Shown: piece by piece, positions 15,381 through 19,581 of the stretch
How positions within the stretch are numbered: position 1 is the first letter of the stretch
Layout: each line of letters begins with the position of its first letter
Assembly: GCA_029974925.1 (NCBI GenBank)
Contig: JARKQH010000107.1
Location: 1 to 43,665 of the forward strand
Direction of reading: 5' to 3'
Origin: Verrucomicrobiota bacterium
GTDB lineage: Bacteria > Verrucomicrobiota > Verrucomicrobiia > Limisphaerales > UBA8199
Length of the DNA: 43,665 nt
Made by a program: the position numbers and the translations under genes
The notes under the pieces: generated by a model
The model's input: only the letters and a program-made list of their open reading frames with translations
The model's database searches: none
Told to the model about the DNA's origin: nothing

Positions 15381-16400
15381 ATGCCTGAGCGGATGATTTC
15401 GGATGTACTGGCGAAGCCGGACGCGGCGTTGGAGATGACGCTGCGGCCGTCGCTGTTCTCCGAGTTTACCGGCCAGTCCAAGGTCAAGGAACGGCTCGAA
15501 ATCACCGTGGCCGCCGCTCGAAAGCGGGGCGAAGCGATTGACCACATCCTGCTGAACGGCCCGCCCGGCCGCGGCACGACCACGCTGGCCAACATCATCG
15601 CCAAGGCCATGGGGGCGAATCTCAAGAGCACCAGCGGCCCGACGATCGAAAAAGCGGGCGATCTGGCCGGCCTGCTGACGAATCTCGAGGAAGGGGATGT
15701 GCTGTTCATTGACGAAATCCACCGGCTGCAAAAGACCATCGAGGAGTATCTCTACCCGGCGATGGAGGATTTCAAACTGGACATCATCATTGACCAGGGG
15801 CCCAACGCACGCAGTGTGCGCCTGAACCTGCCGCGGTTCACCCTCATTGGCGCGACCACCCGCAGCGGCCTGCTCACCGCGCCCCTGCTCACCCGCTTCC
15901 CCATCCGCGAGCGGTTGGATTATTATCAGGCCCCCGAGCTCCAGCAGATCGTCCTGCGCTCGGCCCGCCTCCTCGGCGTCGAAATCGAGCCGAACGGCGC
16001 GATGGAAATCGCCCGGCGCAGCCGGGGCACCCCGCGCATCGCCAACAACCTCCTCCGGCGCGTGCGCGATTACGCCGAGGTCCGCCATGAGGGGCGCGTT
16101 ACCGTCGCGGTGGCGGACCAGGCGCTGGCCATGCTCGAGATTGACGAAAACGGGCTGGACGAGATGGACAAGCGGATTCTCGAGAGCATCATCGTCAAGT
16201 TCGGCGGGGGGCCGGTCGGGTTGGGGTCGCTGGCGGTGGCGGTCGGCGAGGAACCGGACACCCTCGAGGAGGTGTATGAGCCCTACCTCATCATGGAGGG
16301 GTATCTCAAGCGCACGCCGCAGGGGCGCGTGGCCACCGAACTGAGTTACCGCAAGCTCGGCGTCAAGTTCCGCCCGGGCAGCCAGCCCGCCCTCCTGTAA
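15381..16400 (+). CDS. ruvB: Holliday junction branch migration helicase RuvB, with altered Walker A (GPPGRGTTT)
   Basis: [95 protein letters not shown]. Walker A Lys position is ACG (Thr). Confidence 0.93.
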
Positions 16401-16410
16401 GAGCCCGTCC

Positions 16411-19400
16411 ATGTCGAAGTCGTCTGCACGGCCCGGCATCCGGCTCCGGGGAGTTCGCCACAACAACCTCAAGAACTTCGATCTCGACCTCCCGCTCAAC
16501 CAGTTGATCGTCATCACCGGGCTGAGCGGCTCGGGCAAAAGTTCGCTGGCCTTTGACACCCTCTTCGCCGAAGGCCAGCGCCGGTACATCGAGACCTTCT
16601 CGCCCTACGCGCGCCAGTTCCTGGACCGGATGGACAAGCCGCAGGTGGACCGGATTGAAGGCATTCCCCCCGCCATTGCCGTCGAACAACGCAACACGGT
16701 CAAAACCACCCGCTCAACGGTGGGAACCATGACGGAGATTTGCGACTATATGAAGGCGCTCTGGCCCCACGTCGCGCAACTCCATTGCCGCCAATGCGGT
16801 CAACCGGTCCGCAAAGACACCCCGCAGGACGTTTGGCGGGAGGCGTCGGCCGGCGCGGCGGACCGCTCCGTGGAGCGGCTCGTGACCTTCGAGCTGCCCT
16901 TGAGCGACAAGCTCACCCTGGCGGAGTCCCTGGCCCTGGTGGCCCGGCAGGGCTATCAGCGGCTGCTGGTGGGAGGCCGGGTGATTCGCCTCGAGGAAGC
17001 GGCCGCCCGGATGGCGGGCGAGGCCGGATCGCTCGTCGTCGTCCAGGACCGCTTGCGGCCGGCAGGAAACCGCGCCCAGTTCATCGAGGCTTGCGAGCAA
17101 GCCTATCACTTTGGCAAAGGGAGGCTGACCCTGTGGACGCTGGACGAAAACTCGCACGCCCGCGACTCCCGGCATTTCTCCAACCGCCTGCACTGCGCCC
17201 GCTGCGACCTCGAGTATCGCCCCCCCACCCCGGCGTTGTTCAGTTTCAACCACCCCGTCGGGGCCTGCCCCACGTGCCGCGGATTTGGGCGAATTATCAC
17301 CATAGATTACCACCTGGCGCTGCCAGACCGCTCGCGAACGCTGGCCGAGGGCGTCGTCAAGCCCTGGCAAACCGGCCAGGGCCTGGAATGCCAGGCGGAT
17401 TTGCTGCGCCTCTGCCGCCAGCATCAGATTCCGACGGATGTGCCGTTCCAGGACCTGCCGCCGCAGTGGCAAAAGTTTGTCATCGAAGGCGACCCCAATT
17501 ACGGCAAGGATGCGGCCCATGAGTGGCCCCACGCCTGGTACGGCGTCAAAGGCTATTTCCGCTGGCTCGAATCCCGGGCCTATAAAATGCACGTGCGCGT
17601 GTTGCTCTCCCGCTACCGCGCCTACACCGCCTGCCCCGCCTGCCAGGGCAAACGCTTCCAGCCCGACACCTTGCTCTATCGCGCGCCCCGGCCCCCGGCG
17701 CTCCGGGAAAGCCCAGGGACGAAGTCCGAGGGCCCCTCGGGTTTGACCCTCGCAGATTTTTACCACCTGCCGATTCGGGATGCCTTGCGGTTTGTCGCGG
17801 ACTTGGAGACGCGGCTTGGGCTGCGGCGCAATGACCCGCAGGCGATCCTGTTGGGCGAGGTGAAATCCCGCCTGGCGTATCTCGAAGCTGTGGGTCTGGG
17901 CTATTTGACCTTGGACCGTCCCACCCGGTCGCTTTCCGGGGGCGAAACCGAGCGGGTGAACCTGACCACCTGCCTGGGGACGCGTCTGGTCAATACCCTC
18001 TTCGTTTTGGACGAACCGAGCGTGGGGCTGCACCCGCGAGACACTCAGCGCTTGGTGCACACCCTCCAGCAACTGCGCGACGCGGGCAACACGGTCGTCG
18101 TGGTGGAGCACGAGGCCAGTGTAATCCGCGCCGCAAACCAGATTGTGGACCTGGGGCCGGGTCATGGGGCCAGCGGGGGCAAAGTGGTGTTTCAAGGCAG
18201 TTACAGCGGCATTCTGAAAGCCCCCGCATCTCTCACCGGCGCCTACCTGTCCGGACGCAAGCACATCGAGCTGCCCCCCCGCCGGCCGGTTCTCCTGTCC
18301 CCGGCCACCGGAACCGTCCCACGCAATACCATTCCGGAGGCGCTCAAATTGCGGGACGTCCCCGCCCCGGCGCCGACGCCGCAACCTTGTGAATTCCTGC
18401 GCCTGGAACACGCAACCCGGCACAACCTCAAGGATTTAACCGTGGACATCCCGCTCGGGCGGCTGGTCTGCATCACCGGCGTAAGCGGCTCGGGAAAGAC
18501 CACTTTGGTGCGCGAGGTCTTGCTGCCCTTGCTGGCGGCGCGGCTCGAGACGCAGAGGGCCGCCGCCAAAGCCTCGGAGCGGTCCGATGCCGAGGCCGTC
18601 GAGAGCGACGACGACCAGGAATTGTCAACGGAGGCGGAAGTGCCGGCAGCCCGAATCAGCGGCTGGGAAAGCCTCGGGCGGGTGGTGCTGGTGGACCAGG
18701 CAATCCTGGGCAAGACCCCGCGGTCGAACCCGGCGGTTTACATCGGCGCCTTCGAGGAAATTCGCGAGTTTTTCGCGCAGACCGAGCCGGCGCGCCAACG
18801 GGGCCTCAACGCCAGCGCGTTCAGCTTCAATTCCACCCAGGGACAGTGCGAACGCTGCCGGGGCGCCGGTTACGAAAAAATCGAAATGCAGTTCCTCAGC
18901 GATGTTTTTATCCGCTGCCCCGACTGCAATGGCCGGCGCTATCGCCAGCACATCCTCGAGGTGAAGGTCAAAGGCGCCTGGGCCCGGCCCTGGTCCATCG
19001 CCGACCTGTTGGAGGCCACCGTCGAGGAGAGCCGGCAGTTCCTCTCCGCCTTCACCGAATCCCGCCCGGCGCGGCGAGCGGTCGAAAGCCTGCGCTGGCT
19101 CGAGGAAGTCGGTTTGGGCTACCTCAAGCTGGGCCAGCCCATCAATACGCTGTCGGGCGGTGAAAGCCAGCGGCTGAAGCTGGTTCGGCACCTTGCCGAA
19201 GCGGAGCGGGACGCTGACGGCAAACTCGACACAACGGGCGCCGACAAACCGACGTTGTTCCTCTTCGACGAACCCACCACCGGCCTGCATTTCGATGACG
19301 TCCGCGTCCTCCTGGGCGTCCTTCAGCGCCTCGTCAGCTCAGGACACTCGGTCCTGGTCATTGAACATAATCTCGAGGTGATCAAGTGCGCCGACTGGGT

Positions 19401-19581
19401 GATTGACCTCGGTCCGGATGCCGGGGATGAAGGTGGGCAGGTGGTTGCCGTCGGCACACCCGAAACCGTTGCCGCCTGCGCCCACAGCCACACCGGCCAA
19501 GCGCTCCGCGAAGTGCTGCCAGCCAAAAAAACTTCTCGTTCTGCAAATCCGAACCGGACGGTGCCGCGCCGCATGCGGTAA
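16411..19581 (+). CDS. uvrA: UvrA-family excinuclease ABC subunit A (long form)
   Basis: GLSGSGKSSLAFDTLFAEGQRRYIETFSPYARQFLDRMDKPQVDRIEGIPPAIAVEQ; CXXC zinc motifs (LHCARC...GACPTCRGFGRI; CERCRGAGYEKIEMQFLSDVFIRCPDCNG); LSGGETERV and LSGGESQRLKL. Could be a paralogue rather than the canonical uvrA. Confidence 0.88.
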   Translation: MSKSSARPGIRLRGVRHNNLKNFDLDLPLNQLIVITGLSGSGKSSLAFDTLFAEGQRRYIETFSPYARQFLDRMDKPQVDRIEGIPPAIAVEQRNTVKTTRSTVGTMTEICDYMKALWPHVAQLHCRQCGQPVRKDTPQDVWREASAGAADRSVERLVTFELPLSDKLTLAESLALVARQGYQRLLVGGRVIRLEEAAARMAGEAGSLVVVQDRLRPAGNRAQFIEACEQAYHFGKGRLTLWTLDENSHARDSRHFSNRLHCARCDLEYRPPTPALFSFNHPVGACPTCRGFGRIITIDYHLALPDRSRTLAEGVVKPWQTGQGLECQADLLRLCRQHQIPTDVPFQDLPPQWQKFVIEGDPNYGKDAAHEWPHAWYGVKGYFRWLESRAYKMHVRVLLSRYRAYTACPACQGKRFQPDTLLYRAPRPPALRESPGTKSEGPSGLTLADFYHLPIRDALRFVADLETRLGLRRNDPQAILLGEVKSRLAYLEAVGLGYLTLDRPTRSLSGGETERVNLTTCLGTRLVNTLFVLDEPSVGLHPRDTQRLVHTLQQLRDAGNTVVVVEHEASVIRAANQIVDLGPGHGASGGKVVFQGSYSGILKAPASLTGAYLSGRKHIELPPRRPVLLSPATGTVPRNTIPEALKLRDVPAPAPTPQPCEFLRLEHATRHNLKDLTVDIPLGRLVCITGVSGSGKTTLVREVLLPLLAARLETQRAAAKASERSDAEAVESDDDQELSTEAEVPAARISGWESLGRVVLVDQAILGKTPRSNPAVYIGAFEEIREFFAQTEPARQRGLNASAFSFNSTQGQCERCRGAGYEKIEMQFLSDVFIRCPDCNGRRYRQHILEVKVKGAWARPWSIADLLEATVEESRQFLSAFTESRPARRAVESLRWLEEVGLGYLKLGQPINTLSGGESQRLKLVRHLAEAERDADGKLDTTGADKPTLFLFDEPTTGLHFDDVRVLLGVLQRLVSSGHSVLVIEHNLEVIKCADWVIDLGPDAGDEGGQVVAVGTPETVAACAHSHTGQALREVLPAKKTSRSANPNRTVPRRMR

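Follow-up and report, generated by a model that had tools for sequence, protein, structure and literature searches.

Ruv locus and altered Walker A motif

The window analyzed here, the whole 43,665-nucleotide stretch of DNA, lies on one contig (C29) of a draft assembly of a Verrucomicrobia-group bacterium; this assembly is incomplete, consisting of 487 contigs with a total of 5.73 Mb, and is rated 97.6% complete with 4.4% contamination. Positions 15381 to 16400 of the window, on the forward strand, are occupied by ruvB, an intact open reading frame of 339 amino acids that encodes a full-length protein with the P-loop, lid, and winged-helix domains. The gene is preceded by a methyltransferase-like gene and followed by uvrA (16411–19581); the assembly encodes at least three UvrA-like proteins, this one included, with others on contigs C203 and C290. 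The characteristic Pfam architecture of RuvB (PF05496/PF17864/PF05491) was recovered over the whole length of the ruvB product (RuvB_N, 5.8e-74; AAA_lid_4, 3.9e-32; RuvB_C, 1.1e-21), and the top matches in a PDB search were RuvB chains, which bears out the identification of this gene as ruvB in an earlier note made from the sequence alone. The closest homologs come mostly from metagenome-assembled genomes of the Verrucomicrobia group, including Verrucomicrobia subdivision 3, Limisphaerales, and Pedosphaera. The Walker B motif, sensor 1, the arginine finger region, and sensor 2 are all present, and the residues in these regions all occur in the relatives; together with the uninterrupted frame, this agrees with the previous description of the gene as open and intact outside the Walker A motif.

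The Walker A motif itself (15558–15584, forward strand) reads GPPGRGTTT instead of GPPGLGKTT. The codons at positions 15555–15581 are AAC GGC CCG CCC GGC CGC GGC ACG ACC, which translate into N GPPGRGTT. Two bases on the forward strand, 6 bp apart, are private to this sequence: G at 15571, where the codon of the nearest relative has T, converts CTC to CGC (codon 15570–15572) and Leu64 to Arg, and C at 15577, where the codon of the relatives has A, converts AAG to ACG (codon 15576–15578) and Lys66 to Thr. Thus, the loss of the Walker A lysine that had been read from the window is confirmed, and a single transversion indeed suffices for the Lys66Thr change; the motif, however, does not differ by one change alone, given that Leu64Arg (15571) is present as well. 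The assembled sequence does not conform to GxxGxGK[ST], the pattern with the catalytic lysine that is expected of RuvB. The organism's own gene may nevertheless conform to it, the assembled change being, probably, a base error.

Two singular residues in a constrained protein

We aligned 109 RuvB relatives with 59–89% identity that were obtained from a genome search and from a public genome collection; a few of these are one record present in both collections, and 100–105 are left after de-duplication. The GPPGLGKTT motif is present in all 109 aligned sequences, without exception. When all 339 positions were scanned, Arg64 and Thr66 turned out to be the only residues that are absent from every relative. 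A pattern search among 320 genomes of the order detected no other case of a Lys-to-Thr replacement in the RuvB context: the pattern of the Thr-for-Lys motif matches in 3 of the 320 genomes, namely, in the window and in two unrelated frames that are not RuvB. In the set of genomes searched, the genus is represented by this assembly alone, and all these comparisons are with more distant relatives. A lineage-wide change of the motif was considered and rejected because every aligned relative has lysine. Lysine in all close relatives, with the window showing a low-coverage singleton base, had been named beforehand as the outcome that would speak against a genuine change, and the part of it that concerns the relatives is what was obtained for the aligned sequences.

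In comparisons with the seven nearest relatives, ruvB shows dN of about 0.07–0.09 and dS of about 0.7–1.2, with dN/dS of about 0.06–0.10. Judging from these substitution rates, the gene is under strong purifying selection and, apart from the motif, appears to be strongly constrained. The combination of low dN with high dS implies that ruvB was functional until very recently or is still functional. Altogether, this protein resembles the known RuvB in its complete three-domain architecture and in that all its residues but two are found in relatives; it differs from them in its Walker A motif, where GPPGRGTTT replaces GPPGLGKTT, a reading confined to this assembly.

We further examined the quality of the assembly at positions that are invariant among relatives in other conserved genes. 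None of these positions is violated in rpoB (0/701), rpoC (0/708), fusA (0/319), or hppA (0/182; on the same contig as ruvB), for a combined count of 0/1,910. In uvrA, also on the ruvB contig, 3 of the 307 invariant positions are violated (R223Q, K389R, and F821Y). A globally poor assembly was accordingly rejected, with four conserved genes clean and only three private changes in uvrA. Given that conserved genes are clean elsewhere, the two radical changes in ruvB, located 6 bp apart, look like a single local event.

The RuvAB system and other AAA+ genes

A search for a second RuvB across the 97.6%-complete assembly found none. The remaining matches to PF05496 in the assembly are weaker AAA+ proteins encoded at four loci, three of which have a lysine-bearing Walker A motif; the next-best match, on contig C121, has GPPGTGKTS. 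The failure to find a second RuvB in the assembly contradicts the suggestion in the earlier note that the altered subunit might enter a mixed hexamer with another RuvB. Compensation, also proposed there, gains no support, with no other position of RuvB departing from the relatives. The genes for the partner proteins, ruvA (6.8e-62) and ruvC (4.6e-32), are intact and adjacent on contig C164 (5813–6933); this pair and ruvB sit on different contigs.

Several other genomes present peculiarities of their own. No match at the RuvB level was found in six genomes, two from the same family (G003 and G005) and four from the same order (G020, G034, G038, and G049); the best matches in these six genomes, with values of about 1e-9 to 1e-12, are RarA-like by size and position. 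Either missing contigs or a true loss of ruvB would fit the observations in the six genomes. Genome G003 is rated 96% complete, and in view of this case, the group may be able to do without RuvB. In yet another genome of the same order, the RuvB match (G042, C592:1332–2273) contains one in-frame TAA.

Origin of the two private bases

Both private changes replace A or T with G or C (T to G at the first base, A to C at the second), the surroundings are GC-rich, GGC motifs stand before both bases, and a small inverted repeat, CGGCC-CGCCC-GGCCG (15557–15571, forward strand), takes in the first of them. Positions with A or T have been reported to suffer systematic Illumina errors more often than positions with C or G; the commonest substitution is to G, followed by substitution to C, and errors become likelier when several GGC motifs precede (PMC3295828). 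Another report lists inverted repeats and GGC as error triggers (PMC4787001), and in earlier data, A to C was reported to be the error seen most often (PMC3334598). However, in conflict with these error spectra, one later study places the two substitutions concerned here (T to G, A to C) among the rarest miscalls (PMC6053417). The ruvB site is similar to the described systematic errors (PMC3295828, PMC4787001) in the A/T to G/C direction of the changes, the GC-rich composition, the position after GGC, and the adjacent inverted repeat, but the strongest published motif, GGT to GGG, is not its exact context. As expected of systematic errors, the changes are private to one assembly and fall on positions that are invariant elsewhere. 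Many relatives have a similar GC-rich context without any such error in their assemblies, a point against this explanation. The agreement in base change and context would count as support for an error rather than as proof. A hairpin-templated mutation was considered as well and rejected: the T to G change lengthens the GGCC stem by one pair, but the A to C change is left unexplained, and the DNA fold of the window form, in which CGGCC pairs with GGCCG, is no better than those of shuffled sequences (z 0.04).

The explanation that we favor, with a probability of roughly 0.78, is that the RuvB of the organism is an ordinary one that reads GPPGLGKTT, and that G for T at 15571 and C for A at 15577 are local sequencing or consensus errors. 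The two changes, both of them radical and close to each other, are seen in no relative and lie within the motif alone, in an otherwise well-constrained gene of which no second copy was found; we infer that they originated, most probably, in sequencing or assembly and not in the cell. A stronger argument for an artefact than the error context is that a lone, constrained RuvB would have to lose both the Walker A lysine and its invariant neighbor, in one assembly only. Systematic Illumina miscalling could have occurred in the GC-rich stretch after the GGC motifs and the inverted repeat, and low or one-stranded local coverage might then have fixed the miscalls into the consensus. The true protein would be a normal ATP-driven motor of Holliday-junction branch migration. 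A base error, which the earlier note had rightly held to be a serious alternative, is made likely by the restriction of the changes to one assembly, against 109 relatives.

That the sole RuvB of a living Verrucomicrobia-group bacterium truly lacks the Walker A lysine, whether through a recent knock-out of RuvAB or with Arg64 partly substituting, we consider unlikely. Of these possibilities, a real, very recent loss-of-function allele, in which the ATP-binding lysine and RuvAB branch migration are gone, is the main rival of the favored explanation but is itself improbable, even if the bases are present in an assembly that is accurate otherwise in five conserved genes and the lack of a RuvB match in G003 from the same family suggests that loss may be tolerated. 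Such an allele would have arisen via one multi-base event (and such mutation events do occur) or via two substitutions in quick succession, and other routes, for example, those involving RecG or RadA, would take up the load. However, the protein shows no other sign of decay and has a low dN/dS, the changes are both radical and lie in one catalytic loop, in a context reported to be error-prone, and the allele would be a singleton across the 109 relatives and 320 genomes.

Far less probable is an altered nucleotide site, in which Arg64 takes over the phosphate contact or RuvB serves as a nucleotide-free structural subunit. The joint appearance of Arg and Thr in one loop, with the remaining motifs all kept, would be compatible with such a change, but neither residue occurs in any relative, there is no compensating change elsewhere in the protein, and no wild-type RuvB partner for a mixed hexamer was found in the assembly; furthermore, in the RuvB of T. 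thermophilus, the Walker A lysine K51 contacts and coordinates the phosphates (PMC10272136). The most remote of the alternatives, replacement of the motif by a segment copied from another P-loop gene through gene conversion or assembly mixing, could yield both changes 6 bp apart from one imported piece, but a search of the assembly with the 20-base mutant motif found no other place with fewer than 3 mismatches and eight places with 3 mismatches, not above the control counts, and matches to a shorter motif within the window are at the chance level.

The assembled sequence can be compared with laboratory mutants of RuvB. Walker A lysine mutants are known for E. coli (K68) and T. maritima (K64), in each case engineered singly. 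The equivalent lysine is replaced in the assembled sequence, but, unlike in those mutants, threonine is accompanied by the change of leucine to arginine two residues upstream, and the replacement probably does not exist in the living cell. If the changes are an artefact, as is likely, they call for caution with regard to catalytic-residue changes reported from single assemblies of uncultured genomes in the absence of a check of relatives and reads, and two private transversions that lie this close together can usefully be taken as a warning. If the changes are real, the organism, with no backup copy found, would possess a natural RuvB that lacks the ATP-binding lysine, a case that would bear on the dispensability of RuvAB.
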